The position numbers were made by a program, and so were the translations under genes. 64,000 bases of DNA from IMG/VR virus record IMGVR_UViG_3300025082_002887, positions 20,702 to 84,701 of that record. One strand, written 5' to 3'. Positions 7,870 through 64,000 of the stretch are shown in pieces (the stretch's first letter is position 1; each line of letters begins with the position of its first letter). The stretch is from a virus. The notes beneath the pieces were generated by a model. That model saw only the letters and a list, made by a program, of their open reading frames with translations. It made no database searches and was not told the DNA's origin.

Positions 7870-7877
7870 GGAAAAAA

Positions 7878-13160: not shown

Positions 13161-13176
13161 ATTAACAGGAGTAAAC

Positions 13177-13836: not shown

Positions 13837-13844
13837 ATTTTAAT

Positions 13845-15464: not shown

Positions 15465-15471
15465 GGAATAT

Positions 15472-18789: not shown

Positions 18790-18814
18790 TGAAAAGTAGT
18801 TATGATGTGATTAA

Positions 18815-19126
18815 ATGGTAATTTATGTAGATATTGATGAAACAATTTGTATAACACCAGGAGATGCGCATACGGCAAGAAATTATGAAAATGCAAAACC
18901 TCTATTAAAAAACATTGAAAAATGTAATAAACTATATGAAGATGGTAATACAATTGTATATTGGACCGCCAGAGGGTGTACAACTGGTATAGATTGGTTT
19001 GACGTTACAGAAAAGCAATTAAATGAATGGGATGTTAAATATCACGATCTAAAATTGGGAAAGCCATTTTATGATTTATTTATTGATGATAAAGCAATAA
19101 ATTCAAAAGATTTTTTTAAAAATTAG
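18815..19126 (+). CDS. small HAD-family phosphatase (capsule type)
   Basis: A 103-residue HAD phosphatase. MVIYVDIDETIC is motif I (Asp6, Asp8, Thr10). IVYWTARG gives motif II (Thr in the strand end), and LGKPFYDLFIDDKAI gives motif III/IV with the Lys and Asp pair. It resembles the minimal capsule-biosynthesis phosphatases. In a nonulosonate pathway such an enzyme would remove the 9-phosphate made by a sugar-phosphate NeuB. A 10-codon ORF (18789-18821, MKSSYDVIKW) ends as ATGGTAA over the HAD start, which may couple translation to NeuB, since no ribosome site is visible. Confidence 0.8.
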   Translation: MVIYVDIDETICITPGDAHTARNYENAKPLLKNIEKCNKLYEDGNTIVYWTARGCTTGIDWFDVTEKQLNEWDVKYHDLKLGKPFYDLFIDDKAINSKDFFKN

Positions 19127-19137
19127 GAGGAAAATAG

Positions 19138-29800: not shown

Positions 29801-32800
29801 AAATTAGCAGAATATGATCAAAACAAGATGCTTGATGAAATTACAACAATGTTGCCATTGTTGGATCCTAGTAAACTAGAAGATATGATGCCTCCATTAT
29901 TTTGCGGCCCATGTGATCCTGGAAAAGTTGGCCAAGAGCCTTTAATGCCAAGCCAAACACATCCATCACAATTATTCTTGCTTGATCGCATGAACAAAAA
30001 TCTTTTTAAAATGGTTAATAAGATGTTTAATAACAATATAAGCGCTTATAAGCCAATTATAATGGACGTTAGAGAAGATGCTAAACAATACCCAGAAATA
30101 TACAAAGAGTTGGCAGAAAAACATATGCCCACTAAAAAAGAACTAAAAAAAATGACAGATGTTGAAAAGTCAGAGGCTTTTTCAGATGCTCACAAACTTA
30201 TACAAACAGAAATGATGTCGCGCTTCGCCGCTGAAGATGGCGATGGGACGAGCCAAAAAGATAAATTTGTTGCAAAAGCACTTTTGGATGCTCTTGAATC
30301 GGCCGCGGCCCAGTCTGAGGTTAACCCAAACCAAAATATAATTATCAATCCTGAATCCCGCGTATTCTCATACGATATCCCTGATAGTGCGAATCAAATA
30401 TTAATGATAATAAATTTTTCAAACAGCGCATCGACATATGGTTCTATAACAACAGAATCACGACAAATAAAGATTGCTGTTCAAAATAAATTTAGTAAAA
30501 CCATTGAATACGAATGGCCTAATCCTAAAAGTACCGAACTCCACCAAATAAAAGATTTTAACGAATTAGATTTAACTATGGAATTTTTTAGGCACCTCGG
30601 TGAAAAAATACCCGCGATGAATTCTTTACTAGGATTGGAGGTTGTAACCCAGACAATAACGGGGGGAAAACAAGCATCGGTTCTTACACAACACTATCCT
30701 TTGATTGTAAATCTAATATTTGAAACTGTTTTTACTCAAGCAGCACAACATGATTTGTTTAGAAGTAATATATTTTATCAAGTGCCATTGACGGATGAAG
30801 AAGTAAAAAAGAGATGCAAAGAGGGCCCCGGCAAAAAGCCTCTTTTAGATACGGCAAAGCTTGCTGATGATGTTTCCAAAGCACGCGAAGCGCTAGAATG
30901 TGTTATAGGAATGTTTGAAACTCCAGACGCAACCCAGGTTGCACAAATGTTTGGTCTTTATAAGTTAATAATCAAAGTTTGTATAATAGAAGAATTCTTA
31001 AAAAATATATTTATCTTTGGTTTCGTTAGAATAGCTGATATTTTAGAATCAGACATATACATGCCAATATTATTAAAAAATATTGTTGGTGTTATACAAT
31101 CATCAGTTAACGGAGACAACTATGATAACTTATTAGATTACTCAGCAAAAATTATAAATGGGCGAGAAATTTTAGGAGAAGAATTTAAAAGCGTAGGCCC
31201 CGCCGACGAATGGGCAACAGGGCCTTTCGGTCCAATGAAAAAAATGAAAACACCAGAAGAGTGTTTAATGATAATAATTAGAGAAACCGCGCGAGAAGTT
31301 AACGACATTTTAGATGATCGTATACAAGGCCTTTTAGATCCAGGCTGGACTAAAAAGTTTTTTGCATATGATAGTGTAGACGACCCCGAAACTCAATCTG
31401 TATTAGAAAGTAGACTTTTAGAGTATGCAATTTTATCGCCAGATTATTGGTCTCCAAACGTATATCCCCGCCCCCATCACGGCCTCTCACCTACTTTAGG
31501 AAAGTTAGATGCAATGAACCCTATATTGGAGACCGAACCCGACCGCGGGCTGACCGTGTACAGCGACGCCAACGGTGCCACAATCTTCAAAGGTGGGTGG
31601 CCCACCGCCCCCACAAACGTAACCCAGTTTGAAACGGACCGCGCATTCAACGCAGTATCTTATTGGCCGACTATTGGGAATCAACCATGGGGCGGCGGAC
31701 TATTTCTGCAACCTTATATGAAAATTACATCTAAACTATCTGGCCCGTCAGGACCCGGCTCCTTTTGGACAAAATTCAAAAAGGCCTATGAGTTAAAAAA
31801 AGAATTCGAAACAAATCCAACCTCGGCCGCATTCGCCGCACAGTATACAAAATCTTCTGATCCAAACAATGTAGGAGAAAATGCAGTTGCGTTGTTGATA
31901 AGCAAAATGGATGACAATAGTCTGACACAGGATGCGCGCGCTCTATTATTCAATTCGTTCTTTAAAACATTTTTCGACCCAACTTACCTCCCAGATGCGA
32001 AAGCTAAAATGCCGTTTACACGATTAGTTTCTTCGCAAGTAACCTCGGCTGAAACCGCCGACACTAGCTATGAACCATATTATTATTGGGACGACAACCT
32101 AGATAACGCCATTCAGGGCGCCCAAGAAAGATATCATTGGCTTAATAGAGGTATAATATCGACGGACTTTGCTCTTGACGTAGCTCAGCGAGCCGAGCAA
32201 AAAGCACAGAACCTCGCCCTCGCGGAAGAAATAGCACTTCAGGCAGCATATGCAAATATGATATCAGGAATCGTACTCGCCCCCGGGGAATCCTTGTCCT
32301 CCCGTAAAAAAGAGATTCATAGTTACATCTATTCTAACAGGAAGCATTTTTATCCTCCCCACATTAACCCTTCCAACAGCTTTGGAAACTTAAACGCTGT
32401 TCCTGCAAAGGCGTTCCCAGAAGGCATGATGTTGTCTACCATTAATTTACTTGGGCTGGCCAAAGATATGTCCCCAATTACTAATCTAAAACCATCGACG
32501 ACAACCAGTGCCTTCTTCGACAGTGTTCGCAATTTTTTAGGCACAAACGGCGCCGGCTCTTTACAAACAACTGATCAATATCCCATCGACAAGGACGGCG
32601 CCGGCGGGTTCGAGTCCCCTGTACATGATTATACTGAAGCTGTAGCGTTCTGGTCTAGAGTAAGAGATATAATTTTTGATAGTCCTTATGATCTCTGGTT
32701 TGATTTCACATTAGGGATGAGATTAAATTTGGTGTTTCCTATAGATAGCGAAGAGGCTCAACAAGGTATTTTTGAAGCGGCGCAATTTCAAATGGACAAG

Positions 32801-37115: not shown

Positions 37116-38644
37116 TGGCTATTAAAAGATATAAAGCAGATGCAGACACAACAATAACAAACGCTTTTAAAGCAAACTTAACAACTCGCGGCGTGAGCGG
37201 CAATATGGGGCAATCAGATATACTTGAAGTGTTTTCAATTTATGCCCAAGAATCTTCTGCATCATCGGAATTGGAAAGAATTTTAATTAAATTTCCTGCT
37301 ACCGGCACTGCGGCTGGGTACATTTCTTATGATAGAACACAAGGAAATATACCAGCCTCCGGGAGTGTTTCATTCTATTTAAGAATGTTTAACGCAGAGC
37401 ACTCACAAACCACCCCTAAAAATTTTAATTTAATTGTTTCTGCGATTTCTCGTTCCTGGGCGGAGGGGCTCGGGTTGGATATGGAAGAATATACTGATGA
37501 AGGCGCCGCCAATTGGATGTCAGGAAATATTTCAGCTAGTGTCGATGACGATGGATCTTGGACGACGCCAGGTGGTGATTATTTAACAGACGTTTCTTCT
37601 TCTTTTACTGCATCTTTTGACACAGGATTCGAAGATGTAGAATTAGATATTACTCCATTGGTTGAACAGTGGATTAATAGTGCAGGTAATGAAGCAGTCT
37701 TAGGTTCTAAATCAAATTATGGCGTCGGAGTCAGACTGTCACCGACAGAAGATAGCGCGACTGATTCTTATTACACTAAAAAATTCTTTGCAAGAGGATC
37801 ACAATTTTTCTTTAAGCGCCCCTATATCGAAGCGCGTTGGGATTCTTCCACCAAGGATAATCGAGGAAGTTTTTATTATAGTAGCTCATTAGCGCCAGCG
37901 GCCGATAATTTGAATACAATTTATCTCTATAATTATGTGCGTGGGCAATTAAAAAACATTCCAAGCATTGGATCCGGCTCCATTTATGTTAGTGTTTATT
38001 CTGGCTCCTCTGACAATTCTACACCGTCTGGTTCGAAATTACAATTAAGCGTCGGAGGAGACGTCGCCTCAACGAACCTTTTTAACATTACCGGAGGGAA
38101 TGTATCTACGGGCCTTTATTCAGCATCGTTTGCTTTTACGGGTTCGACCTCTTTGTCAGGCGTATTTGATGTTTGGCATAGCGGCAGTACAGAATATTTT
38201 ACAGGAACAATTACTCCAGCAAGCTTAACGCAAAACTGGCCCGGGCAGTCTCACAACCCAAATCAACAGTATGTATCTAAAATTACAAATTTAAAATCTT
38301 TTTATTCGAGTCAAAATACAACTGCCAGATTACGTTTATATACTAGAAAGAAAGATTGGAATCCAAATATTTATAGTGTGGCTTCTTCAGAAGCTCCTAT
38401 TGACTTGGTAGAAGATGCCTATTATCGAGTATATCGCGTAAATGATAATTTGAGCGCGATATCTTATGGAACTGGAAGCGACAACAGCACGCGGTTATCA
38501 TACGATAATAATGGAAGCTACTTTGATATAAATATGTCTCTTTTAGAGCCAGACTATACGTATGCAGTCAAATTTGTTTACTATCTTAATAATCAATATG
38601 TAGAACAGCCAGAAGAATTTAAGTTTAGAGTAGAGAAGGTATGA
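37115..38644 (+). CDS. DNRLRE-like beta virion protein
   Basis: A 509-residue, Ser/Gly-rich beta protein. Residues about 1-220 resemble DNRLRE adhesion domains: DADTTITNAFKANL, ELERILIKFPATG, ISRSWAEGLG, DITPLVEQWIN and a FFARGSQFF ending. The rest repeats beta strands with many SGS turns. It is probably a baseplate or fibre component exposed to the outside. It overlaps the 3545-residue gene by ATGA. The DNRLRE comparison is from short motifs and is tentative. Confidence 0.6.
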   Translation: MAIKRYKADADTTITNAFKANLTTRGVSGNMGQSDILEVFSIYAQESSASSELERILIKFPATGTAAGYISYDRTQGNIPASGSVSFYLRMFNAEHSQTTPKNFNLIVSAISRSWAEGLGLDMEEYTDEGAANWMSGNISASVDDDGSWTTPGGDYLTDVSSSFTASFDTGFEDVELDITPLVEQWINSAGNEAVLGSKSNYGVGVRLSPTEDSATDSYYTKKFFARGSQFFFKRPYIEARWDSSTKDNRGSFYYSSSLAPAADNLNTIYLYNYVRGQLKNIPSIGSGSIYVSVYSGSSDNSTPSGSKLQLSVGGDVASTNLFNITGGNVSTGLYSASFAFTGSTSLSGVFDVWHSGSTEYFTGTITPASLTQNWPGQSHNPNQQYVSKITNLKSFYSSQNTTARLRLYTRKKDWNPNIYSVASSEAPIDLVEDAYYRVYRVNDNLSAISYGTGSDNSTRLSYDNNGSYFDINMSLLEPDYTYAVKFVYYLNNQYVEQPEEFKFRVEKV

Positions 38645-41600
38645 GCAAAGATTATAAAGAACTTTTTGGCCAAAAAGATGTTATTCTAACAAATGCGGAC
38701 AGAGAAGTTTTAGGGTCAGAACTAGAATCTGTCGAGTACATGACAGAATATTTCAACAAGAAACAAAGATTTGTCCCTCCTGTCGACTTCACCAAGCCTA
38801 AAAATTTCGCCCGGTTTGGCTCAGCAGAAAAATACTATATTGATGCAATTGATAGAATTTATAAAACTTATCCGTATGATGGCTCACTAAAAGAACGAGT
38901 TCAGTGGGAGTTAAGTTCATCTTATTTTGACCTCCACGTTTTTGAAAACGGATACCCCCGTACAAATGGTTACGTACTTTTTTCTCCGGAAGGCTGGGGA
39001 ACGAGAGTTGGCTCACAAGTCAATAACTTTGGTCTCTCGGATGCAGTTGAATATGTTCAAATTAAAGGCGGCCCCAATACTTCTCAGCGGAGTCAAGGCA
39101 AAGATATTCAGGACACAACAGGAGATTATAAAGATGGCTATGCTAATGTATGGGACCCCGTAAAAAATCGAACTTCTAACTTAGCTTTGGATCTTGACGA
39201 GGGCGTCACAGTTGAATTTTGGTTAAAAAAAGCAGCTGCGCTCGGCATCGGAGAATCAGTACTAGAAACAATATTTGATGCATGGAACGACGACGATTCC
39301 GCCGCCGCCTACGGTAGGCTCCAAATTCTCCACATTACGGCCGCCCCCAGCCTCATCGGAGTTTATTTCAGTTCGGGGTCTGTATACAATACTATGACAT
39401 CGCCTGCGTATTACTTGTCATTGGATGACCAGTGGCATCATTATGCAATTAGTTTGAAAAATGATGGTTCTAATTTAATCACTAAATTTTATAAAGATGG
39501 TGCATGCGTAAAGGAAGAAGCAGATACGACACTGAATGAAATTACTGGTTCTCTAATTGCGAATATTGGTGCTGCTCGACGCCCCTCGATAGTGCGCATG
39601 GAAACCGCAACCTTATCACCCGCCCAAAAAATTGATGGGTACGGCAAACTTTCTGGTTCTATAGATGAATTTAGATTTTGGAAAACAGAAAGAACATCCC
39701 AACAGATCGGTCGCCAAATGATCGAACCGGTCGGTGGCGGCGCAAATACTGATGATGCGAATACTGATTTAGGTGTATATTATAAATTTAACGAAGGAAT
39801 CACTTCAGTTGCCTCAACTGATAATATTGTCTTAGATTATTCTGGTAGAATTAGTAATGGTAGCTTTGTAGGATATAGCACCTCTAGTAGAAACACCAAC
39901 TCAGCAATAGTTGAATCAGGAAAAGCATCAGAAGAGTTTAAAGATCCAATTCTTTATGATTTTCACCCAGATGTTATATCTTTTCGAGACACAAAAAAAT
40001 CTGAAGGACAAATTTATGATTATTCAAATAATTCATCCATTTATCATACACTTCCAACGTGGATATTAGAAGAAGACGAGCTTAAAGAATACTCTCCATT
40101 AAGAAATTTAACTCAGATTATTGGCAGCTACTTTGATTCGTTAGCAAATCAAATTTGGACTCTTCCAAAATTAAAACATAAAAACTATTTAAGCTCAAGT
40201 TATAAAGCATATCCCTTTTCTGATAAGCTATTGGAATCAGTTGGGTTTTCATATTTTCCAGAATTATTTTCTGACGCGTCAGCCCTAGCTCAGTTCAGGA
40301 ATAGAGACGATAACTTACTTTTTAAACAGAAATTATATGACGTAAAAAATCGCATATATCAAAATATCTACAATAATATTGTTTATATATATAAAACAAA
40401 GGGCACCGAAAAGTCTTTTAGAAACCTTATTCGTTGTTTTGGCTTCGATGATGAAATTTATAAAATAAATTTATATGGGAATAGAGTAACTTATCAATTA
40501 AAAGACAACTACTCATCCGTGGCAGAGTTTAAAAAGTATATTAATTTTGCGCTAACAGGCACACAAGAAGCAACCGTTTTTCCAGTTTCATCGAGCAGGA
40601 ATCCAAACTCTACTTCATATATTTCTGGTACAGATAACAATGAATGTAGTTTTACATCATTCACAATGGAAACAGAAGTCGCCTTTCCTAGACGACACAG
40701 CCTCGCAGCTGCTAATACTGTAGTAGAATCCAGCAAAGGACCAAGCAAGTCTTTTAGAGCATATATACCTTTTAAAACCGCTTCTCTTTTTGGTACACAT
40801 CAAGTTAATGGCACAACAGAAAATGATTTAACATGGGCGTCAACTGATTATGCTAATTTTCAGGTGTCCGCTGTTAGAGATGAAGAATACTCGAAAAGAT
40901 GCCAATTCAAATTAACAGGCGTCGGCGCCTCTGTTATGCCAACCTTAACAAGCAGCTATTTCGATACAGTATTTGATGATACGCGCTGGACTTTTTCTGT
41001 AGCCTTAAGGCCGTCTTTGGAAGCAGATCTGCCATCCGGATCAATCCACTCTCCTTTTATAGTAGAATTTTATGGCGTAGAAAAAGTATTAGATATTACT
41101 AACAACGAATTTTTCTTGACCTCTTCAATTGATTCAACTAGCGCTCAGCGGTTTATGAATAATCCAAAGAGTGTTTATATCGGCGCACACCTAGAGAACT
41201 TTTCTGGAACACTGCAACAACGATCTGATGGAAATATTTCATCGACGCGAGTTTGGTTAACACATTTGCCAACCGGCACAATAAAACAGCACGCACAAGA
41301 CGTAAAGAACTACGGAACGTCAAGCCCATATAAAAGTGCGTATTTATATCAAACTTCAATGACCGGCACCCGCGTACCGGAAATTCATACGCTAGTATTA
41401 AATTGGACTTTTGACACAGTAACTGGATCTGATTCTGGCGGAGCATTTATTGGAGAAGATTTTTCTTCCGGCTCAGTTAGTTTACAAAACCGATATAATT
41501 GGATTGGAAACATTGTAGGAAAACAATATTTACCAAAAGGTTACAATTTCCCAACTAATTTTTCTAGCTCTATTAATAAAAAGTATGTTTATTCTGCAAA

Positions 41601-44600
41601 AAAACAATTACCAGAGTTTGTAAACAGTTCAAACATGGTAAATATTTTGTCTGATGATGACATATTTTTTAATAAAGTTGATTTAGCGCGACCAACGAAT
41701 TATTATATGTATATTGAAAAAAGTATGTATCAAACCATATCGGAAGAAATGGTAAGAATGTTTTCTTCAATAAAAGATTTTAATAACCTGATTGGAGAGC
41801 CGGCAAATAAATATCGAAGCAGTTATAAGCATATGGAAAAGCTTCGACAACTCTTCTTTGAAAGGGTCGGCAATACACCAGATCTAGATAAATATATTGA
41901 TTTTTATAAATGGGTCGATCACACTTTAGATGTATTACTTGGCTATCTGGTACCGGCGTCAGCAGACATTAGCGATCAATATGGCAGCAATATTCGTACG
42001 CTAGTAGAAAGTCACGTTTTAGAAAGAAACAAATATAAATGGCAATTCCCCACATTAGAAGATAAAGGATCAGACCCGGAAGGAAATATACTTGGCATTA
42101 ATGAACTCCTTTATAATTGGGAATATGGCCATACACCCCTCGATCCTTTCAATTCGAAAAGTATCGCCTTTAATGGGATGACCGGTCATTCACTATTGGC
42201 CGCCCCAGCACCCGCTTCTGATTTGCTCTTCGGCGCCGATGGGGATCCCGCCAATGAACCCAAGTTTTCTTTATGTGCGTGGGTTAAGCCAGCCACGTCT
42301 CTCAGCACGAACTTTGGGGTTATAGGCCACGGCGCCTATTCCGCAACCAACGCCGGCTATGCTTTAGATATATCCACAGCACATAAAGTTCGAATGTCTA
42401 TCCGCGATGAAGACACCAATGCGAGCAACCTGTTGACTGCAATAGAAAATGCCGTTAGTTTGACACCTGGCGAATGGAACCACATTTGTGCAACTTATGA
42501 TGGTTCTTCCGCCGCCACTGGAATAACTATTTATGTTAATGGAGAGTCTAAGACAACGACAAAAACCACTGGCGGTTCCTATTCTGCGATGCACAATATC
42601 AACTCCGATGTTACTATTGGGCGGAAATATTCAAATTTCACCTATGATAGCCAGGCCGAAGGTAATATTGATGAAGTTGCCGCCTTCGGCAAAGAGTTGT
42701 CAGCCACTGAAGTTACCGAGCTTTACCATTCGCGACATGCGTACGATCTAAACACCTTTTCTGCCCGGACCAGTTTAGTTTCATGGTGGAGAATGGGGGA
42801 TAAAGCCTCCGGAACATCCCCAAACTATACAATTCCTGATCTAGTTGGCTCTAACAACGCCACAATGACCAACTTTTCAGGCACCATAGACAGTGGGGTA
42901 GTCGACGATCATGCACCCTCTGTTCGGGACCAAATTCAAAAGTGCCTATGGTGGCGCCAGAGGGCAGAAAGAGATACTCCAGCCATCTCTTCATCCGCTA
43001 ACGGCGTTAATTCTGATAAGCAGGCAATGCTTGATTCCATCAACAACGAGACAAACGCTAAGAACTATATGCTATATGATAGTGCAACTAGCACAACGTA
43101 TTCTGGTTCTACATTTGCAATTCGCCGATTAGCCAAACCATACAAATTTACAGTTGATGAGTCTCGTACGACCAAGGGCGGTACAAATTATTATCCCAAT
43201 AAAAAAGTTGATATTATTAAGTCTGAAATATTATTTGGGCAGCCAGCCTCTGACAATCCAGTCGCGCGGCTATCATTGCCACTTTCCGAACTCGAAGCTC
43301 TTGAAAATTGCGATGACGACGCAGGGCTAATATTAAAACGCAAACGACATGGCCTAGCTTACATTTCTCATGACGACGCCTCCGACGCGACACATATAGC
43401 TCAAAAAGAAGGCTATCTTATAGGAAAAAGTGATTTATTTACACCGTTTAGTATGTATAGCGCGTCCAGCCCAGTTACTTATCATAACATAAGTGCGTGG
43501 CAGAATATTGACATTACAAACTACCACGCTGACATATACGGCCCTTCTTACGAAGTGCCAATGCAGGGGCCGTTCACAGAAAAATATGTCGGTGGAAATC
43601 AGTACAGACATGTGGGTTTAAATGATGGCCTTGATGATCTCAACACCCGCCCAGAGGGCTGGCGGACTCTTTTAGCTCCCACCGTTTTGTATCTTTACAA
43701 TGGCGGCGCAGGAGCCCAGGCACAGCCTAATGCCTCGCGCTATAGAGATGAAACAGCTAAACGCCCCGTAAACATTAGAAATATTCAACAAGCAACCGGG
43801 TCTAGTATAATTGGCAATTACAATAAAGATTATGAAATTTTAATGACTAGTGGCCGCACAATTAATAACCGCTTTTTTGTTAAAAACGAAGGCGTTTCTG
43901 CAAGCTCAACAGACTCTTTATCGGTAAGCGGAGTATTCGATTATGTTTTACCAGGCGCCGCTCAATCAGAAAGAGACCGACAAGAAGTTGTTATAAACGG
44001 TCTAACTTCGTCCGCGCGCAATGATTATATTATTGTCAACAGATTCTCTGCGCCTGGAGATCCATCAACAATGGGGTTTGCTTATTTAGATATCGAGGCA
44101 CAAGAATATTCAGTTTACAATGCACTGCCATGGCGCAACTTAATAGTTCGTGAAAGTTTGCATGAGCTGCTGACAGATCACACAAAACAATTTGGATATT
44201 TTAGTGACACACAGAATTCAGCCAGCTATGCTTTAGCGGGCGCCACCTATCCGGGGTCCAGCGGCTCGGTAAATGCACTAGATTATGTCGGCACCGCATC
44301 TTTTCACAAGATCAATAGAAACGCAACAAGAACAATAAATTTGACAGAGACTACAGCCAACTTTGATAATAGTAAATATATAGATTTTGAAGCTTCGAAC
44401 AGTGAATTTCTAAGCTCTTCGGCACCAAGCGGATTTCTGACAAATAAGTTTAGTTTCTCTGCGTGGGTAAAAGCAGAAAGCGTGGATACTAATACTTATA
44501 TAGCCACTCATGGGGATTTTGGGTCGAGCCACTACACCGCTCGTTGGTGGTTGTTGAAACGCACAGACGCGGTCGCCGGAGTGGATGCCATAACTGTATA

Positions 44601-47600
44601 TATTGTGGGTGACGGATGGTCTACTTCAACTTATAAATTTTGGACCACCGCCGAAGACGCTATTTACGCAGACACTTGGGCCCATGTTGCCTTCACTTAT
44701 GACGCCTCTCTTGACAGCGCCGGCGGCGACGCGGCCCTTAAAATTTATATTAACGGAGTAGAACAATCCACCACTATGGGTGAAACCGGCACCGGTGCGC
44801 AGCCGCCTAATTTGACTTCTCAAAACGGCCCATTCGTTGTTGGTGCCATCCAAAACAACGGCGCGCCAAGCTCACCATTCGACGGCGGCATAGATGAGCC
44901 AAGTTTTTGGAACACGGCTTTATCGCATCTCGACATTAAAGAAATTTACGAAGGATCTTCCGGAGTTTATAGCGCCGCCGGCGGCCCTGGCAATTTGAAT
45001 GCGCACACAAAGAAAGATAATTTAGTTTCATGGTGGCGAATGGGCGATGACTATAATGATGATGTTACGCCCGGTATACCTGATGGTGTTCAAGACGTCG
45101 GCCAAAATGGAAATAATAACCACCTGACAATACCAATCGCATCGTGGAACCCAGTGTCGTCTTCGGTAAATTATTTAACAGGCGCGGCCTATTATGTGGC
45201 GGAAACTGGCCCCAAAAGAAATGATAACTGGTTTGTCCAACATCAGATTCCTCAAACTGATTTACAATATCAATGGATTACAGCAAGCGTAATTGAAGGA
45301 TATACGGGCTCAGCATATTATGGTTTCCAACAGCCAGATTATAGCAACGCAGGTTTAGCTTCTACTGATATTACGTTTGTACTACAAAGCCAGATTGAAG
45401 ATGCAGATGGAAATAAAGTTGATTTTGCTGGAATAAATACGTTGATTGTCGATCCGATTTCAAGTACTTCGAACACATTAAGTTCATCTGATGGCTATCT
45501 TGGCTATAGTAATAATGATGTGGCCGGCGGCATCGCCCCATCTCAAATTTTAAATGGTTTAAATCTCCATAGAAACGGCCCTTACGAATGGGCTTCGTGG
45601 CAACAAATTAGAGGAAATGAACATCCTGTAATCCGACTACATAGAAAGGAAAATAGACAATCATTTTTACAATTAATCAAAGGCGGTACAGACTCAGGAA
45701 AATTAAAATATAAAAAATCTGTAGTTTCTCAAATAGTGACACCAATTACATCAAAGCACAAGCCGTTAAAACATTATTTAAATATTAAGGAAAATAAACA
45801 TTCAGATTCTCCCACTTCAGGAATAACAATACGCCATACCTATGGAAATGAAAGATGTTACTTTCCTCAAAGAACTTCGGGTGGAATAGATTTGAATAAA
45901 TCAAACTTTATTTATACTCAAGCAGGTACTATGGGCCAAGCAATTAATCAGGGACAAAAGAATTTAATTTATGACTCTTTGAATCAATTTATTATTAACA
46001 AAGATATGAGCGGGTCAACTGCAAACCCTGTTGATAAATTTGTTAAAATGACAATGGGACAGACAATTCATCCTCGCGGATATAACACTTATACAAAAAG
46101 AACAAGACAGCGCGACAACTTCCAAAATAATTTCTGGAGAGATCTTCGATTAGCAAGAACACCGGGATACCCAAACTTTGTGACGGCGAGCGTCTACCCG
46201 TACAACCTACACAAGAATTCCCAAGGATTCGGCACATGGTACTCTTGTAAGGCCTCGGGGCGCGCCTCGAACGGGGGCACCGCAGAGCTTCCAATGTCAA
46301 GTATGTGGGCTCTCGACGGCCGCGTTGACCGAGCAGGATCGTATCAAGACGCCGTGCTCGATAATAATAGCTGCGACGGGCAACCATCAGGCACTTCTGG
46401 TATGGTCTCGAAAGGTGAACTGCAGAATAGTTATAGTTTATACTTATATATTCAAGCCAGCGGGATCCGGTTTCATATATTATTGGCCGCGGCCGCAACT
46501 TATTGTCGAATGGTGCCAGAAAGCATGTCAAGCGGAATACAGTTCGCTGGGGACACCAAATGGGAAGCCGGCGAACAAGCAGGCATTAATCCTTTTTACG
46601 ATTCGTATGAATATTATATTGAAGATCTAAAAAGAATAGGTAAAGATTATGGAATATTACCAGAATTTAGAATTAGTGACCATATGGATTATTATGTAAA
46701 TGACAAAAAAGAAGACTTTTTAGCAAACAATCCCGGTTTCCTTAGCCTAACTGGGTCAACGATTTCTAGTAGTAATGATGAATCTTTTTATACGGTGTAT
46801 TCCACTAGTGATTTTATGCAACATTTTGGTTTAGTTCGAAAAGATTACGGAAAAACTGCGCTCCCCACTGAATTAAAACTTGAATGTAAAGGCTTAATGA
46901 AATTTTTACCATATGATGGTTTTTATCCAGCACAAAGAACATTACAATTAGCATCGCTATTTAGTAAATCTTTCGGCCCAACGGCTGAAAAATATTCAAC
47001 CGGCTGGGGCGGCTACAATCCGCTGATCAGCTCGTGGCAAACTCTTTTGCAGCCCATATTTTCCCCGGGTCTATTATATAATTCAATTAAATCTGGCATC
47101 GCAGTTGAATATCCAGTTTGCACAGGCTCAGCAGGCGTACATATGGCTATCACAGGAGTATACGCAGATTCCGGAGTCGGCTTCCCCGGCTGGGGAGACC
47201 ATCATGATGGCGCCGATGCACGCCTTTCGGGCACTTTCGAACATAGAATACCATTTGAGGCTTTAGCAAGCCCAAACCAGCACTTAAATGGCTTAAAAAT
47301 AATATATATGGAGCCACACCCTAGCGCTTCTATCATGCAGACAGCCAGCTTTGGCACCTCCGAGAATCCATTATATCGCTATGCAATGAACAACTTCTTA
47401 GCGGAAACGCCATCATTTTTCTTGCAAGGGAGCGGTCTTAGCACCATATCTTCAAAATCGGACAAAGATTTAAAAACAGTTGAGGAAAATAAACAGTATA
47501 AAATGAGAATAGTGCTAGCACATTCACAGCGGAAAAATAAAGAACTTTTTGAGATAAGTGCCATTGACCCAGACGAAAGCTCAAAATTTGCACTGTCACG

Positions 47601-49278
47601 GTCGTTAAATTATCTTTCTTTCGAATGGAATCGGCCAACCATAACAATGTATAATCGCTCCTTCGACCGGTCAACCAAAAAAGATTATGTAGGATCTTTT
47701 GTGGGGGACAGCGGATCAACACTAGCTTACGGGTCGTCTTTTGGTCCTCCTTGTGCAGCCTCCTCCTCAGAGTATGGCTACGAAGCTAGTTTCGAGCCTT
47801 TTACACCGCCTTATTATAATGGCTATAGTCATATTGAGGTTACATATGATTCTGGCCTAGGCGGCGACACACAAATATCTGATATACTAGCCAAAGCCCA
47901 ATCAACGGCCACTCTTCATCGTGAACATAGCCGGCTGGATTATGCCAACTCACCGGCTGGAGTCAATGCGATGCAGCTTACAGCGTCTTTAAATTGGAAT
48001 CAGCTTGTTACGGACCCTGATACTGGAGCAGGAAGATGGGTGATACAACCCAAATGGGAATGTCCTGTATTAGATTTTAATGAAGCTGATATCACATTGC
48101 CAATTACTGGATCTGGATCAGTTGCAAAAGGAATGTGGCACCAATATGGCTCTATTCCACGCGGGCCGGCCGGCATCACTTTATCAGTACAGGATGTACC
48201 AGGGTCAGATTCTCTAAGAGATCTTTTGGGCATAGAAACTGAGGAAATAAAACTAGGCCGCGTCTCAGAAGAAGGTAAAGAAATTTCTGAAGCTATTGTT
48301 GCAATACCGTTCGTAGATCAGGTAGCCAAAGATTATTTCAATATTAATCGTCAAACAATTGACTGGGCTGAAGCTATATTAAAGCCGCCGCCGACTTTCC
48401 ACTCTGACAACGCTTCTTACTGGGTTGATAGATTTGTCGCTACTAAAAAGCCTTTTAAAATTCACAAGCCTGCACAAAGTGTTCTTGAGATGGTTAAGAA
48501 AATGCGAAAATATGTAATTCCCCCGCGCTTCGATTTCTTAACAAACAAAAGTATTAAACCTCTTGCAATGGTAATATTTGAATTTACAGCACAATTATCG
48601 CAACAAGATTTAGTAAATATATGGCAGAATTTGCCGCCAACAAGTTTAAGCACTATCATGACAGGATCTCAAGCAACAATTTCATTAGATCTTCTCCGAC
48701 GTTATGAATCTTTTGACGGAGACCCAACAGGGGACAGCTGGAAAGGATTTAGCTTATTGAATGAAAGAGCACCGGACAACGGACCGTCCCCTTTCCCAAG
48801 TAAAATTCAGTGGCTTGTTTTCAAAGTAAAGAAGAAAGCAAAAACTAATTATTTTGGTTTAACAGCAAAAAATGAAAAATCTGAAGCTCAAACAGCCATG
48901 GGGTTTGATCCAACTTTTAAAGGTACCCCGCCTCCTCCAATTCCTAATTATAGTTTTAATTGGCCATATGATTTCTTTTCTTTAGTTGAGTTAGCCAAAA
49001 TAGATTCTACATATAAATTAGAACCACACCCATCACTAGTAAAAGACATCGCCCCCTCAAAGATTTCTCTTGAAGAAGCGCTTGACAAAGGAGAGGACGC
49101 ATCTGAAAATACTGAAGAAATAACTAACAAGGAAAAAGAATTGACGATGGGCCAACAAACGGGCGTCGGCTGGGATAAAAATGCATTAGAAAATGTCGAT
49201 CAACAAGGTGGTGCCGTAGATAAGCCCGCCGGCGGCGCAGGTTCTGGAAAAGCTGGTAAGCCTGGAGGAGTATATTAA
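38641..49278 (+). CDS. giant virion adhesin with three LamG/ConA-like domains
   Basis: A 3545-residue protein. Three concanavalin A/LamG-type domains are visible: residues about 180-360 (VTVEFWLKK ... DQWHHYAISLKND ... GSIDEFRFW), 1170-1370 (SLCAWVKPATS ... GEWNHICATYDG ... GNIDEVAAFGKELS) and 1910-2105 (FSFSAWVKAES ... WAHVAFTYDA ... GGIDEPSFWNTALS). Each ends with the 'IDE...W/F' strand of the fold. These domains bind glycans or proteins. The linking regions are beta-rich, and the C-terminus is Gly-rich and ends in GGVY. Position directly after gp6 and a DNRLRE-like protein suggests a large baseplate-attached fibre. T4 gp7 occupies a similar map place but is far smaller. Confidence 0.7.
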   Translation: MSKDYKELFGQKDVILTNADREVLGSELESVEYMTEYFNKKQRFVPPVDFTKPKNFARFGSAEKYYIDAIDRIYKTYPYDGSLKERVQWELSSSYFDLHVFENGYPRTNGYVLFSPEGWGTRVGSQVNNFGLSDAVEYVQIKGGPNTSQRSQGKDIQDTTGDYKDGYANVWDPVKNRTSNLALDLDEGVTVEFWLKKAAALGIGESVLETIFDAWNDDDSAAAYGRLQILHITAAPSLIGVYFSSGSVYNTMTSPAYYLSLDDQWHHYAISLKNDGSNLITKFYKDGACVKEEADTTLNEITGSLIANIGAARRPSIVRMETATLSPAQKIDGYGKLSGSIDEFRFWKTERTSQQIGRQMIEPVGGGANTDDANTDLGVYYKFNEGITSVASTDNIVLDYSGRISNGSFVGYSTSSRNTNSAIVESGKASEEFKDPILYDFHPDVISFRDTKKSEGQIYDYSNNSSIYHTLPTWILEEDELKEYSPLRNLTQIIGSYFDSLANQIWTLPKLKHKNYLSSSYKAYPFSDKLLESVGFSYFPELFSDASALAQFRNRDDNLLFKQKLYDVKNRIYQNIYNNIVYIYKTKGTEKSFRNLIRCFGFDDEIYKINLYGNRVTYQLKDNYSSVAEFKKYINFALTGTQEATVFPVSSSRNPNSTSYISGTDNNECSFTSFTMETEVAFPRRHSLAAANTVVESSKGPSKSFRAYIPFKTASLFGTHQVNGTTENDLTWASTDYANFQVSAVRDEEYSKRCQFKLTGVGASVMPTLTSSYFDTVFDDTRWTFSVALRPSLEADLPSGSIHSPFIVEFYGVEKVLDITNNEFFLTSSIDSTSAQRFMNNPKSVYIGAHLENFSGTLQQRSDGNISSTRVWLTHLPTGTIKQHAQDVKNYGTSSPYKSAYLYQTSMTGTRVPEIHTLVLNWTFDTVTGSDSGGAFIGEDFSSGSVSLQNRYNWIGNIVGKQYLPKGYNFPTNFSSSINKKYVYSAKKQLPEFVNSSNMVNILSDDDIFFNKVDLARPTNYYMYIEKSMYQTISEEMVRMFSSIKDFNNLIGEPANKYRSSYKHMEKLRQLFFERVGNTPDLDKYIDFYKWVDHTLDVLLGYLVPASADISDQYGSNIRTLVESHVLERNKYKWQFPTLEDKGSDPEGNILGINELLYNWEYGHTPLDPFNSKSIAFNGMTGHSLLAAPAPASDLLFGADGDPANEPKFSLCAWVKPATSLSTNFGVIGHGAYSATNAGYALDISTAHKVRMSIRDEDTNASNLLTAIENAVSLTPGEWNHICATYDGSSAATGITIYVNGESKTTTKTTGGSYSAMHNINSDVTIGRKYSNFTYDSQAEGNIDEVAAFGKELSATEVTELYHSRHAYDLNTFSARTSLVSWWRMGDKASGTSPNYTIPDLVGSNNATMTNFSGTIDSGVVDDHAPSVRDQIQKCLWWRQRAERDTPAISSSANGVNSDKQAMLDSINNETNAKNYMLYDSATSTTYSGSTFAIRRLAKPYKFTVDESRTTKGGTNYYPNKKVDIIKSEILFGQPASDNPVARLSLPLSELEALENCDDDAGLILKRKRHGLAYISHDDASDATHIAQKEGYLIGKSDLFTPFSMYSASSPVTYHNISAWQNIDITNYHADIYGPSYEVPMQGPFTEKYVGGNQYRHVGLNDGLDDLNTRPEGWRTLLAPTVLYLYNGGAGAQAQPNASRYRDETAKRPVNIRNIQQATGSSIIGNYNKDYEILMTSGRTINNRFFVKNEGVSASSTDSLSVSGVFDYVLPGAAQSERDRQEVVINGLTSSARNDYIIVNRFSAPGDPSTMGFAYLDIEAQEYSVYNALPWRNLIVRESLHELLTDHTKQFGYFSDTQNSASYALAGATYPGSSGSVNALDYVGTASFHKINRNATRTINLTETTANFDNSKYIDFEASNSEFLSSSAPSGFLTNKFSFSAWVKAESVDTNTYIATHGDFGSSHYTARWWLLKRTDAVAGVDAITVYIVGDGWSTSTYKFWTTAEDAIYADTWAHVAFTYDASLDSAGGDAALKIYINGVEQSTTMGETGTGAQPPNLTSQNGPFVVGAIQNNGAPSSPFDGGIDEPSFWNTALSHLDIKEIYEGSSGVYSAAGGPGNLNAHTKKDNLVSWWRMGDDYNDDVTPGIPDGVQDVGQNGNNNHLTIPIASWNPVSSSVNYLTGAAYYVAETGPKRNDNWFVQHQIPQTDLQYQWITASVIEGYTGSAYYGFQQPDYSNAGLASTDITFVLQSQIEDADGNKVDFAGINTLIVDPISSTSNTLSSSDGYLGYSNNDVAGGIAPSQILNGLNLHRNGPYEWASWQQIRGNEHPVIRLHRKENRQSFLQLIKGGTDSGKLKYKKSVVSQIVTPITSKHKPLKHYLNIKENKHSDSPTSGITIRHTYGNERCYFPQRTSGGIDLNKSNFIYTQAGTMGQAINQGQKNLIYDSLNQFIINKDMSGSTANPVDKFVKMTMGQTIHPRGYNTYTKRTRQRDNFQNNFWRDLRLARTPGYPNFVTASVYPYNLHKNSQGFGTWYSCKASGRASNGGTAELPMSSMWALDGRVDRAGSYQDAVLDNNSCDGQPSGTSGMVSKGELQNSYSLYLYIQASGIRFHILLAAAATYCRMVPESMSSGIQFAGDTKWEAGEQAGINPFYDSYEYYIEDLKRIGKDYGILPEFRISDHMDYYVNDKKEDFLANNPGFLSLTGSTISSSNDESFYTVYSTSDFMQHFGLVRKDYGKTALPTELKLECKGLMKFLPYDGFYPAQRTLQLASLFSKSFGPTAEKYSTGWGGYNPLISSWQTLLQPIFSPGLLYNSIKSGIAVEYPVCTGSAGVHMAITGVYADSGVGFPGWGDHHDGADARLSGTFEHRIPFEALASPNQHLNGLKIIYMEPHPSASIMQTASFGTSENPLYRYAMNNFLAETPSFFLQGSGLSTISSKSDKDLKTVEENKQYKMRIVLAHSQRKNKELFEISAIDPDESSKFALSRSLNYLSFEWNRPTITMYNRSFDRSTKKDYVGSFVGDSGSTLAYGSSFGPPCAASSSEYGYEASFEPFTPPYYNGYSHIEVTYDSGLGGDTQISDILAKAQSTATLHREHSRLDYANSPAGVNAMQLTASLNWNQLVTDPDTGAGRWVIQPKWECPVLDFNEADITLPITGSGSVAKGMWHQYGSIPRGPAGITLSVQDVPGSDSLRDLLGIETEEIKLGRVSEEGKEISEAIVAIPFVDQVAKDYFNINRQTIDWAEAILKPPPTFHSDNASYWVDRFVATKKPFKIHKPAQSVLEMVKKMRKYVIPPRFDFLTNKSIKPLAMVIFEFTAQLSQQDLVNIWQNLPPTSLSTIMTGSQATISLDLLRRYESFDGDPTGDSWKGFSLLNERAPDNGPSPFPSKIQWLVFKVKKKAKTNYFGLTAKNEKSEAQTAMGFDPTFKGTPPPPIPNYSFNWPYDFFSLVELAKIDSTYKLEPHPSLVKDIAPSKISLEEALDKGEDASENTEEITNKEKELTMGQQTGVGWDKNALENVDQQGGAVDKPAGGAGSGKAGKPGGVY

Positions 49279-60832: not shown

Positions 60833-61405
60833 ATGATATTAGGATTGGATATTTCAACCAGTATTACTGGTTATACAGTAATGGATCTCGAAGGTAAAAT
60901 TCTTCGATGTGATGCATGGGACATGCGCAATAAAAAGAAGTTTGGGAATCACTTCGACAAAGCGCAATTCATAAAAGACGATCTTTGTTTCTTGAAGGTT
61001 CAATACCCCATTAGTAAAATTTATATTGAGGAACCATTTATGTTTTTTAATTCTGGAGGATCCTCCGCCAAAACCATGGCGGTCCTTCAAAAGTTTAATG
61101 GGGTCGTTTCCTGGCTTTGTTACGATATATTTGCTCTCACCCCAAATTATGTTAGAGCAAACGAAGCGCGCAAACTTTGCGGTATAAAAGTACACAGAGG
61201 GCAGAAAGCAAAGAAAGTTGTCATACAATGGCTACTTGACAATGATCCAAGTTTTAAGGTAGAATATACATCAAAAAACAATCCGAAGCCTAAATATTAT
61301 GATATGGCAGATTCAGTGGTAATTGCTAAAGCTGGCTACTATTTACTTAAAAAGCAGAACCCACAAGTTTGTTACAATAAGGACTTAACAAATGAAACTA
61401 ACTAA
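60833..61405 (+). CDS. RuvC-like Holliday-junction resolvase
   Basis: A 190-residue RNase H-fold resolvase. GLDISTSITGYTVMD gives the first catalytic Asp6. KIYIEEPFMF gives Glu66/Glu67, and YDMADSVVIAKAG gives Asp157 and Asp160. This is the Asp-Glu-Asp-Asp set of RuvC-type enzymes. It would cleave branched DNA during packaging or recombination, as T4 gp49 does by a different fold. It starts 12 bases after the structural block and overlaps the next gene by 14 bases. Confidence 0.85.
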   Translation: MILGLDISTSITGYTVMDLEGKILRCDAWDMRNKKKFGNHFDKAQFIKDDLCFLKVQYPISKIYIEEPFMFFNSGGSSAKTMAVLQKFNGVVSWLCYDIFALTPNYVRANEARKLCGIKVHRGQKAKKVVIQWLLDNDPSFKVEYTSKNNPKPKYYDMADSVVIAKAGYYLLKKQNPQVCYNKDLTNETN

Positions 61406-61436
61406 ATCCAAGCTAAAACAGATCATCAAAGAAGAA
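61392..61436 (+). repeat. direct repeat copy 1, start of leader-peptide genes
   Basis: The first 17 bases, ATGAAACTAACTAAATC, are identical to those at 61879-61895. The rest of the roughly 45-base copy differs mostly at third codon positions. This suggests an ancestral duplication followed by selection on the peptide. Confidence 0.8.
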
Positions 61437-61877
61437 ATACAGAAAACATTAAACGAGGGCCCGGGCGCGGGGGAACGGGACCCCACGCGAGTGGATGCAC
61501 CATATGGTCGAAGGCCTCACGCGCATGATGCGGGGAGTGATGAACGTGTCATAGCTGGCCTTGGAGATGGCGGGCCCGGATCCGGGTACAATCCTTATCG
61601 TAGGGAAGGCGGCGAGTGGTATGGTGACTACATTGCAGGCCCCGTTCCTGAAGAGGAAGTGTTCGCAGCGGTTTATGAACAGCTCTATTGGAGTATGACT
61701 GCAGAAGAGATAGAACACGATTCGCGCGATGAAATGATTGGTAAAGTAATGGAGCTTTATAAATCAGGTAAAATCAATCCATTCGATATGGACAATGAAG
61801 AGAAAGATAATTTTATTGACAAACTTCGTCCACAAATGGAGCTTCCTTTTGGCAAAGATGACGAAGAGGAATGGTAA
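61392..61877 (+). CDS. Gly-rich protein with putative capsid-targeting leader
   Basis: A 161-residue protein. It begins MKLTKSKLKQIIKEE, then TLNE-GPG: Leu20-Asn21-Glu22 before Gly23 fits the T4 gp21 prohead protease consensus (L/I-x-E before G/A). After the leader there is a Gly/Pro/Arg/Asp-rich stretch, then helical acidic segments (EVFAAVYEQLYWSMTAEEIE). Its leader is nearly the same as that of the next gene. Proposed role: an internal head protein delivered by packaging. No similar annotation can be cited. Confidence 0.6.
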   Translation: MKLTKSKLKQIIKEEIQKTLNEGPGAGERDPTRVDAPYGRRPHAHDAGSDERVIAGLGDGGPGSGYNPYRREGGEWYGDYIAGPVPEEEVFAAVYEQLYWSMTAEEIEHDSRDEMIGKVMELYKSGKINPFDMDNEEKDNFIDKLRPQMELPFGKDDEEEW

Positions 61878-61878
61878 A

Positions 61879-61923
61879 ATGAAACTAACTAAATCAAAAC
61901 TTAAACAACTCATTAAAGAAGCC
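61879..61923 (+). repeat. direct repeat copy 2, start of leader-peptide genes
   Basis: Second copy of the leader-coding repeat, matching 61392-61436. Substitutions keep M-K-L-T-K-S-K-L-K-Q-(I/L)-I-K-E at protein level. Confidence 0.8.
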
Positions 61924-62301
61924 TTCGAAACCGAAGAAGATTTTCTCGAAGCAGTCCCCGAAGGTGAAGAAGAAGGCGAAGATCTCGGAGGCGAGACCAT
62001 CGATACAGTAGACGAATTTATGAAAACCGCGCAGACTTTTTATGATAGTTTACCGGAGGAAAAAAAGCGGGCCATGACCCAGGCCTTTGAGCTACATTTT
62101 GATAAATGGGAAGAAGAGCTAGAAGGCGGCACCGAAGAAGAAGACGAAGAAGAAGGCGAAGAAGAAGACGAAGAAGACGAAGGGGAATATGAAAAGCTCC
62201 GGGGCGTTTACGGGCGCAAAACCAGGCATGGCACTCCACTGACACCAACACAAGCGGTGTGGGCAACAAAAAGAGGATATCCTTTTCAATCTGAAAAGTA
62301 A
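61879..62301 (+). CDS. acidic protein with the same putative capsid-targeting leader
   Basis: 140 residues from the ATG at 61879. I reject an upstream in-frame ATG (61795) because it lies inside the previous gene and the leader peptide restarts at 61879 behind a GAGGA site. MKLTKSKLKQLIKEAF repeats the previous leader, and Ile12-Lys13-Glu14 before Ala15 fits the same prohead protease consensus. The middle is helical. Residues about 86-105 are almost only Glu/Asp/Gly, then basic GRKTRHGTPLTPTQ follows. A head-internal role is inferred. Confidence 0.6.
   Translation: MKLTKSKLKQLIKEAFETEEDFLEAVPEGEEEGEDLGGETIDTVDEFMKTAQTFYDSLPEEKKRAMTQAFELHFDKWEEELEGGTEEEDEEEGEEEDEEDEGEYEKLRGVYGRKTRHGTPLTPTQAVWATKRGYPFQSEK
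62134..62187 (+). repeat. GAA/GAC simple repeat encoding an acidic run
   Basis: A run of GAA, GAC and GGC codons that encodes Glu/Asp/Gly residues within the second leader-peptide gene. It is a purine-rich strand and could vary by slippage. It resembles the acidic tail encoded near 20790. Confidence 0.75.
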
Positions 62302-62345: not shown

Positions 62346-63275
62346 ATGCACTTTGACAAGCTTCGAATCCTCGAAGAAATACTAGGAAACAATTACCGAT
62401 CAAACGATGAACACCTATTCTTTTGTCCGCTTTGCAAACACCACAAAAGAAAGATGTCAATAAATATATCTAAAAATACATACAAATGCTGGATATGCGA
62501 TAGCCGAGGGAAAAACATTTACACCCTCGTAAGAAAGTTTGGTAATCACTTCCAGAAACAAAAGTGGCAAAGCTTCGAAGAGAGTGTTAACATATCAGAA
62601 TTTGATAACATCTTCGAAGAAAAAGAAGAAGAAACAATACAGCGAATTTCCCTCCCAAAAGAATTCATAAGCTTGGCAAATAAGAATTTGTCTTTAACTG
62701 CAAGCGCACCTTTAAATTATTTGAGAAAAAGAGGAATTAATTCGGCTGATATATTAAAATGGAAGATAGGATATTGTGAAGATGGAGAATACAGAAATCG
62801 TATTATTGTTCCCTCATTTAATAGGGATGGGAATTGCAATTATTTCGTTGCACGGTCGTGGACGAAAGACTGGTTAAAATATAAGAACCCACCAGCATCA
62901 AAAAACGTAGTTTTTAATGAATTAATGATAAATTGGGATGAACCAATTGTTTTAGTTGAAGGTATATTTGACGCTATAATCGCAGACAATTCGATACCTC
63001 TGCTAGGCTCTACATTAAATGCCTATTCTAGGCTGTTTAAGGCCATTCTGACGCGCTCTAAGCAAGTTTATGTAGCCCTCGACCAAGACGCTGAAAAGAA
63101 GGCTCTAAGCATCATTAGCGCGCTTATTTCGCATGGCATTGAAATTTATAAAATTGATACATCTGGCTACGAAGATGTTGGAGAGATGACAAAAGAAGAG
63201 TTCAAGGAGAAAAGAGAATTAGCTATAGCATTTGATTCAAGTGCACTTTTAATACAAAAGATATTGCAAATCTGA
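62346..63275 (+). CDS. DnaG-type primase, T4 gp61-like
   Basis: A 309-residue primase. CPLC (Cys27, Cys30) and CWIC (Cys48, Cys51) make the zinc-binding domain at the N-terminus. The catalytic TOPRIM domain includes LVEGIFDA (Glu205) and ALDQDAE (Asp246, Asp248). It would synthesise RNA primers on the lagging strand with the replicative helicase. The C-terminal 55 residues are helical; the protein is a little shorter than T4 gp61 (342 residues). It probably begins a replication module that continues beyond the window. Confidence 0.87.
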   Translation: MHFDKLRILEEILGNNYRSNDEHLFFCPLCKHHKRKMSINISKNTYKCWICDSRGKNIYTLVRKFGNHFQKQKWQSFEESVNISEFDNIFEEKEEETIQRISLPKEFISLANKNLSLTASAPLNYLRKRGINSADILKWKIGYCEDGEYRNRIIVPSFNRDGNCNYFVARSWTKDWLKYKNPPASKNVVFNELMINWDEPIVLVEGIFDAIIADNSIPLLGSTLNAYSRLFKAILTRSKQVYVALDQDAEKKALSIISALISHGIEIYKIDTSGYEDVGEMTKEEFKEKRELAIAFDSSALLIQKILQI

Positions 63276-63299: not shown

Positions 63300-64000
63300 A
63301 TGAAATTTGCTCACATTGCGGACACGCACATTAAAAACCTTAAATATCATTACGAGTACCGAATTGTTTTCGAAAAACTCTATGAAAAATTAAAAAAAGA
63401 AAAAGTCGATTATATTATTCATTGCGGAGATTTAGCGCACACCAAGACACAGATATCTCCAGAGTTTGTAGAGATGTCCACAAACTTTTTAAGAAGTTTA
63501 GCTGACATCGCACCTACATATGTAATATTGGGGAATCACGATGGGAATCTTAAAAACTCCAGTAGACAAGACGCATTAACACCAATTGTTGATGCTTTAG
63601 AGCATACGGATCTTCATTTATTGAAGAATTCCGGGGAGGTATGTTTAAACGATGAGTTTACTATTAACGTTTTGTCTGTTTTTGATCGCGATAATTGGGC
63701 CACTATTTCTGATACCAGTCGGATTAATATTGCACTTTATCATGGGTCTATATCAAATAGCAAAACAGATCTTGGTTGGATTATGGAACATGGCGAAGAC
63801 GATGTATCTATTTTCGAAGGATACGATTTCGCTTTCTTGGGGGACATTCATAAAACCAATCAAGTTTTAGACTACAAGGGTACAATTCGTTACGCAGGTT
63901 CCACGGTGCAGCAAAATCATGGAGAAACTAACGACAAGGGTTTTCTAGTTTGGGACATTGAAAACAAAGATGATTTTACTTGTAAACATGTTACACTAGA
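63300..64000 (+). CDS. gp47: SbcD/Mre11-type nuclease, T4 gp47-like, 3'-truncated by the window edge
   Basis: The frame opens with ATG at 63300 and runs past the end of the window (233 full codons seen). It carries the metallophosphoesterase motifs in order: IADTHI (Asp8, His10), HCGDLAH, LGNHDG, YHGSIS and LGDIHKT, then RYAGSTVQQN typical of SbcD. In T4, gp47 pairs with gp46 (an SMC-like ATPase) as a recombination nuclease, and a gp46-like gene probably follows. The gene is easy to miss because a shorter internal frame (63652-63870) overlaps it. Confidence 0.9.
   Translation, partial: MKFAHIADTHIKNLKYHYEYRIVFEKLYEKLKKEKVDYIIHCGDLAHTKTQISPEFVEMSTNFLRSLADIAPTYVILGNHDGNLKNSSRQDALTPIVDALEHTDLHLLKNSGEVCLNDEFTINVLSVFDRDNWATISDTSRINIALYHGSISNSKTDLGWIMEHGEDDVSIFEGYDFAFLGDIHKTNQVLDYKGTIRYAGSTVQQNHGETNDKGFLVWDIENKDDFTCKHVTL

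Follow-up and report, generated by a model that had tools for sequence, protein, structure and literature searches.

Why do two adjacent genes of a virus genome begin with the same 14 residues, MKLTKSKLKQ(I/L)IKE? The genes, orf161 (positions 61,392–61,877, plus strand, 161 aa) and orf140 (61,879–62,301, plus strand, 140 aa), lie in the analyzed window, a stretch of 64,000 nucleotides that corresponds to bases 20,702–84,701 of an 84,701-base virus record (G000). An initial annotation took these starts, and the LNE-G and IKE-A sequences that follow, for a phage-specific targeting tag on co-injected head proteins, cut by a gp21-like protease. The twin leaders are present at these positions as described. 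With a probability of roughly 0.8, they are cleavable capsid-targeting sequences on head-packaged, injected accessory cargo proteins of a T4-superfamily phage.

The orf161 and orf140 Genes

The N-terminus of orf161, MKLTKSKLKQIIKEEIQKTLNE (residues 1–22; 61,392–61,457), is followed by GPGAGER, so that EIQKTLNE separates the shared 14 residues from GPGAGER and LNE-G occupies residues 20–23. The predicted cut, E22/GPGAGER, rests on the family alignment and on a model helix at residues 5–22. In orf140, whose N-terminus is MKLTKSKLKQLIKEAFETEEDFLEAV, the shared residues 1–14 (MKLTKSKLKQLIKE; 61,879–61,920) continue as AFETEEDFLEAV, placing IKE-A at residues 12–15 and an alternative, FLE-A, at residues 22–25 (FLE24 at base 61,950). 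Both proposed sites thus exist, LNE coinciding with the family-wide site at residues 20–22, but IKE (residues 12–14) falls inside the conserved tag. Since 95% of the family have E at residue 15, FLE/A (24/25) is an equal candidate to IKE/A, and from its sequence orf140 could be cut at either position or at both.

Each start codon is preceded by a purine-rich, Shine-Dalgarno-like stretch on the plus strand (AAGGA, 61,379–61,383, for orf161; AGAGG, 61,865–61,869, for orf140). The ORF listing also contains a longer version of orf140 (orf168, start 61,795); the ATG at 61,879 is the more likely start. The DNA encoding the two leaders differs at 6 of 42 bases, five of them silent and one exchanging I for L, which indicates that the protein rather than the DNA is conserved. 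A third copy of the leader, MKLTKSKLKKIIKEELKNILLNEDDEKR, is located 5' of the window in the same record (L065, record positions 14,432–14,728), while no ORF of the window besides orf161 and orf140 carries it.

Database searches returned no match for either protein, leaving orf161 with an orphan body. For the acidic orf140, no relative of the body was confirmed among viral contigs; a low-complexity match in G022 (E = 8e-6 without composition correction) is weak and was not trusted. AF2 modeling of the single orf161 sequence gave a low-confidence structure (mean pLDDT 55) with helices at residues 5–22, 87–101, 109–124 and 135–148. The first helix ends exactly at residue 22 and is followed by low-confidence coil; in this model the body seems to lack order between residues ∼23 and 83 and is helical afterwards. 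The orf140 model has a mean pLDDT of 58, and both models are too weak for a fold search. An amphipathic character of the helix in orf161 was considered and rejected, as its hydrophobic moment is ordinary (24% of shuffled sequences reach the same value).

Leader A Is Shared by Unrelated Proteins

A search of viral contigs with orf161 identified 63 loci whose genes start with MK(I/L)TKSQLKQIIKEE(I/L)xxxLxE and then encode differing proteins, a recurrence far beyond chance. We refer to this start, with the pattern MKITKSQLKQIIKEE[IL]xxxLxE, as leader A. Genes carrying it form clusters, such as nine genes within 6.6 kb in L021 and six each in L005 and L036, and a single contig holds up to 10 of them, compared to three internal proteins and Alt in T4. 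Together with a second leader, B (see below), leader A is found on hundreds of otherwise unrelated proteins from uncultured, mostly marine, T4-superfamily contigs; the 513 proteins tagged with A or B fall into 280 body families. The tag is, therefore, not specific to one phage as first proposed but common to a large uncultured group, and the suggestion that it could serve as a finder of other cargo genes is supported by these comparative data.

To leave the site residues unselected, 126 distinct leader A ORFs were picked by a pattern on residues 1–14 only. Conservation in this set extends over residues 1–22 and gives way to noise thereafter. The motif [LIVMF]xE occupies residues 20–22 in 57 of the 126 ORFs, whereas every register from 21 on has 0–5 occurrences. 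In a larger, profile-selected set, a hydrophobic-x-E is present at this register in 106 of 228 leaders (∼46%, against a body background of 1.6%), although the HMM-based sets of both leaders were chosen in part by the LxE positions themselves. The next residue (P1') is G, A or S in 46 of these 106 leaders, versus 18.5% after other glutamates of the bodies (p = 3e-8). When 82 proteins with non-redundant bodies are aligned, the conserved part is MKITKxQLKQIIKEExxxxLxE alone.

The hydrophobic-x-E might instead mark the end of a helix in a targeting or docking tag (e.g. for the prohead core or portal) that is never removed. A helix end is indeed expected at this point from the orf161 model, and the exact LxE register is absent from many A leaders. 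However, the excess of small residues at P1' points to cutting, as do the exchange of leaders precisely at xxE with a conserved residue behind it and the L-x-E of the capsid precursors, both described below. An uncut tag is, thus, unlikely.

Two ORFs carry an A-type leader at the N-terminus plus a second, C-terminal or internal copy (G022, 1860–2852; G017, 82643–83911). A contig from a metagenome-assembled genome (MAG) of the predatory bacterium Halobacteriovorax sp. (L153, PBIO01000025.1, 101 kb) has about nine nearby genes with a leader variant, MRITKRQLKRIIKEE, and this MAG also encodes an S77 protease. It is possible that the contig hints at a host, or that a phage contig was mis-binned into the MAG.

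Leader B Replaces Leader A at the Same Border

We compared N-termini within each of nine genomes in an unbiased manner, using mid-protein segments as the control. Far more pairs are shared at the N-terminus than in mid-protein (51 vs 2 in G010, 53 vs 4 in G018, and 45 vs 5 in G002), and the N-terminal sharing in the nine genomes involves mostly two leaders, A and B. Leader B, with the pattern MKLLFENWRKFLNE, is found at at least 78 loci. It is closed by [LIV]xE at residues 12–14 in 241 of 285 proteins, a count to be read with the fact that the profile used for selection includes these residues. In an alignment of 104 B proteins with non-redundant bodies, the conserved part is MKLLFENWRxYLxE alone. 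The P1' residue of B leaders is frequently E or D, unlike typical T4 sites. Three consecutive B-tagged genes (MKLLFENWRKFL.EE) lie near the left end of G000, 5' of the window (L065:1256-5645); they start at record positions 1256, 2521 and 3948 and have bodies of 422, 476 and 565 aa, with one weak match to DUF7178.

The bodies behind leader A are mostly without known function. Those behind leader B include protein kinases (4), PNK/zeta-toxin-like P-loop kinases (3), NUDIX (2) and GNAT (2) proteins, as well as a CCA-adding enzyme (tRNA nucleotidyltransferase), a 2H phosphoesterase, HAD/NT5C phosphatases and DnaJ.

Were the leaders equivalent, detachable labels, one would expect to meet a given body behind either of them. 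BLAST comparisons revealed five body families, and a weak sixth, that follow A or B depending on the phage. In every case, homology starts at the x-x-E that closes the leader. The junctions (A versus B) are VMNE/SMPGMEPYD and FLKE/SPPGMEPYD; TMAE/AAEPHSAHH and HLSE/AAVPHSAHH; RLDE/GHGLSKKDL and YLNE/AHGLSQKDL; VLSE/GKVSYSGVVLD and FLTE/QNIAYSGIVLD; VLRE/NMGLKMFVLVGPPSVGKSTW and YLTE/GEQNKKIFVLVGPPSIGKSTW; and, in the weak case, AIKE/GDVVQGPWG and YLKE/GNVVRGPWA. A separable module, the leader has a fixed hydrophobic-x-E end, and it is there that a second leader can take its place. No other observation speaks as strongly for an equal function of A and B, or for xxE as the boundary at which a removable part meets a retained one.

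A candidate third leader, C (M.RRKN.KFIDPRYFMDE), was noticed on adjacent genes in G002 (89619 and 90026) and also in G013 (68201), G018 (191850) and L238 (12561). The body KSPERADDQQ is found behind leader A in L008 and L039 and behind leader C in G018. Several long B-tagged proteins (L180:4753, L201:4001, L205:223, L206:77 and L209:4363) contain lysine-rich separators, xxEEKKKKKK, that part repeated small basic domains (DACYHKVKxRYxVWPSAYASGALVKCRKVGAKNWG). Some of them have internal leader-A-like sequences, which gives them the look of polyproteins to be processed into several cargo units.

Prohead Protease and Capsid Precursors

The S77 family (PF03420, represented by T4 gp21) was detected in 23 of 35 and 20 of 26 contigs in the two sets searched. 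Among contigs of at least 80 kb, the proportions are 12/13 and 20/24, respectively; the only such contig of the first set without the protease is G000. The search for a gp21-like protease gene was negative in the G000 contig, which breaks off immediately ahead of the syntenic head module, and positive in most large contigs, including a 185-kb relative (G038), where the gene is located ∼17 kb downstream of the primase gene. The protease of the present phage is inferred from this relative. The idea of a tag cut by a gp21-like protease is thus supported by comparison, while the gene itself is not on this contig.

Twelve gp23-like major capsid protein (MCP) precursors contain LL(K/R)E followed by A (9), S (2) or Q (1) in the region preceding a conserved GDVxGF(A)xVAFPIVRR, which is the layout of the T4 gp23 site. 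A leader that mimics the MCP propeptide was rejected as an explanation, since the leader profiles score ≤0 bits on all 12 precursors.

The leaders are found in phages with a matching S77 protease, whose gene has tagged neighbors in some of them: A-tagged genes in L074, L076, L077, L085 and L072, and B-tagged genes in L068, L073 and L074. In several larger contigs A genes are 0.7–20 kb from the protease. Elsewhere (G010, G011, G028 and part of G018) a long stretch of the linear contig separates the two, and most B genes also lie at a distance. Proximity is, therefore, a tendency rather than a rule. A conserved small gene directly after the protease starts with MKKxxLKxxIKPLVKECIxExLxEEG. Its counterpart in the Halobacteriovorax MAG contig, MAKLSRSQLKSIVKECLVEILEEG, reaches E = 0.0025 against the A profile; matches of the KP form are weak or absent.

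The leaders could also send proteins elsewhere in the infected cell, such as to the membrane, a replication compartment or a host partner, and not to the head. Several B bodies count against packaging in this respect: protein kinases, polynucleotide kinase, NUDIX, tRNA nucleotidyltransferase and GNAT proteins are cytoplasmic in many phages, and cytoplasmic action of the NUDIX, kinase and CCA-adding enzymes found here is also conceivable. However, the co-occurrence of the leaders with the S77 protease and the tagged genes next to the protease gene argue for the head, and T4 itself packages an enzyme, Alt, via its capsid-targeting sequence (PMC5694885, PMC9026906). We consider a destination other than the head improbable, slightly more so than an uncut tag.

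Two further explanations have a negligible chance of being correct. A recent tandem duplication with LxE-like sites arising by chance would account for two neighbors that are alike at their starts, but the bodies of orf161 and orf140 differ, their leader DNA differs at synonymous sites, and hundreds of unrelated bodies in other phages have the same leader, in contradiction to duplication. An RNA or translation-control element before accessory genes would fit a sequence at the very start of ORFs that are packed head-to-tail; against it, leader codons within contigs show 1559 synonymous versus 1364 non-synonymous differences, and this abundance of synonymous change indicates selection on the leader protein, while rare internal or C-terminal copies also disagree with such an element.

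Comparison with Known Packaging Signals

In T4, a capsid-targeting sequence (CTS) of 10–19 residues is common to divergent internal proteins, brings them to the prohead core and is removed by gp21 (PMC9026906, PMC3012670, PMC5694885). In the CTS of IPIII, positions 4 and 7 matter for targeting, and positions 8 and 10 for processing; an Asp at position 10 of IPIII prevents processing but leaves targeting intact (PMC9026906). Leaders A and B resemble the CTS of IPI, IPII, IPIII and Alt as short N-terminal leaders on unrelated accessory proteins that close at hydrophobic-x-E before a small residue, with the site of orf140 itself being ambiguous. As in T4, contigs of the relatives encode an S77 protease (gp21-like, MEROPS S77) and a gp23-type MCP, and their accessory genes turn over. 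Leader B has the layout of the T4 CTS, with aromatic residues at −7 and −4, a hydrophobic residue at −3 and E at −1, the positions of functional importance in IPIII. In contrast, leader A is longer (22 aa), basic and then acidic, and without the aromatic pair. The coexistence of two dissimilar leader families that swap is also unlike T4.

The T4 CTSs obtained no significant score against the A and B profiles: the T4 internal proteins are nowhere near the top with the A profile, and IPIII and IPII rank 13th–14th of 256 T4 ORFs with the B profile, with negative scores. The absence of a significant score ruled out filing the leaders as direct homologs of the T4 CTS, and leader A in particular is classed as a CTS-like variant, not a homolog. 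The best reading of the comparison is that the leaders work like the T4 CTS, with homology of leader A to it unsupported. The best T4 match to the leader B matrix is gp61.1 (NC_000866, 18966–19130), whose start, MKTFKEFIKE/DMVAG, is very close to the leaders of T4 internal proteins; judging from this start, gp61.1 might be an unrecognized internal head protein.

The ejection proteins of the giant phages SPN3US, phiKZ and 201phi2-1 are cut by the prohead protease C-terminal to Glu, and the paralogs gp53 and gp54 of this system have an identical 15-aa N-terminus (PMC5694885). The present leaders are similar in the predicted cut after Glu and in an N-terminus common to several proteins. They differ in that giant-phage sites are A-x-E or S-x-E and the propeptides mostly much longer, as opposed to L/I/V/M/F-x-E and 14–22 aa here; phiKZ/SPN3US-type sites are not the pattern, P3 being L, M, I, V or F in the leaders and L in the 12 MCP precursors. 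An N-terminal signal directs P1 DarB, a defense protein, to the inside of the head and can do the same for a foreign protein (PMC9024508). That signal is described for one protein, unlike the short leader reiterated here, and the two are likened by description only.

Neither leader was found in cultured phages, in searches of low sensitivity for such short queries. In the phage collection, leader A matched only the uncultured LR756508.1 (E = 3), and leader B matched none. This unannotated 484-kb record is the only one of the collection to combine a protease match with an A-like leader, located at 156564 and 189655. A literature search, whose coverage lay outside subscription journals, found neither the leader strings nor a description of such a system.

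Proposed Mechanism and Significance

In the capsid-targeting mechanism that we favor, the helical leader (14–22 residues) of each cargo protein would bind the prohead core during head assembly, thereby enclosing the protein in the head. The S77 (gp21-like) prohead protease would then cut after hydrophobic-x-E, at LNE/G in orf161 and at IKE/A or FLE/A in orf140, and mature orf161 would be expected to start with GPGAGER. The freed body would stay in the head, be injected with the DNA and presumably act early in the host. By analogy with T4, we infer core binding, cutting, retention, presence in the virion and injection for the tagged proteins.

More broadly, there is a somewhat better than even chance that this uncultured, mostly marine T4-related lineage uses plug-in delivery, in which leaders A and B (and perhaps C) swap at the exact protease site and load at least 10 different accessory proteins per phage into the head for injection. 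The cargo would include kinases, tRNA-repair-type enzymes, NUDIX proteins and phosphatases, and the sequence alone would suffice for listing injected effectors. Proteins that enter the host together with phage DNA are a phage's first weapons against host defenses, but their small size, rapid change and lack of known domains make them hard to find. If the leaders serve packaging, the injected cargo of many uncultured phages, mostly of unknown function, could be listed by a simple profile search, which would also point out the genes to test for counter-defense. Two interchangeable tags would, in addition, offer a ready means of addressing proteins to T4-type heads.

Genomic Setting of the Putative Cargo Slot

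The two genes are bordered on the left by a RuvC-like resolvase gene (60,833–61,405, plus strand; phrog_159, E = 1.7e-12), in an order kept in relatives, and on the right by a DNA primase gene (62,346–63,275, plus strand; phrog_47, E = 4.9e-43; 37 related loci). An SbcD-like nuclease gene (63,300–64,000, plus strand), assigned by synteny in G002, G013, G022 and G038, is cut by the window end. In these relatives, SbcD precedes further tagged genes, terminase, portal and the S77 protease, and the gene order is tail genes, RuvC, primase, SbcCD, terminase, portal, protease and capsid. The RuvC–primase interval is an accessory cargo slot: it has no gene in L235 (31 bases), L239 or L240, one tagged gene in L236 and two different A-variant genes in L237/L238, and contains orf161 and orf140 here.

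Elsewhere in the window, positions 1569–20022 form a long block of genes that, as read from their sequences, are glycosyltransferase-, methyltransferase-, radical-SAM-, aminotransferase- and sugar-synthase-like. Two giant ORFs (26,858–34,828, 2656 aa; 38,641–49,278, 3545 aa) are found among the baseplate and tail genes.
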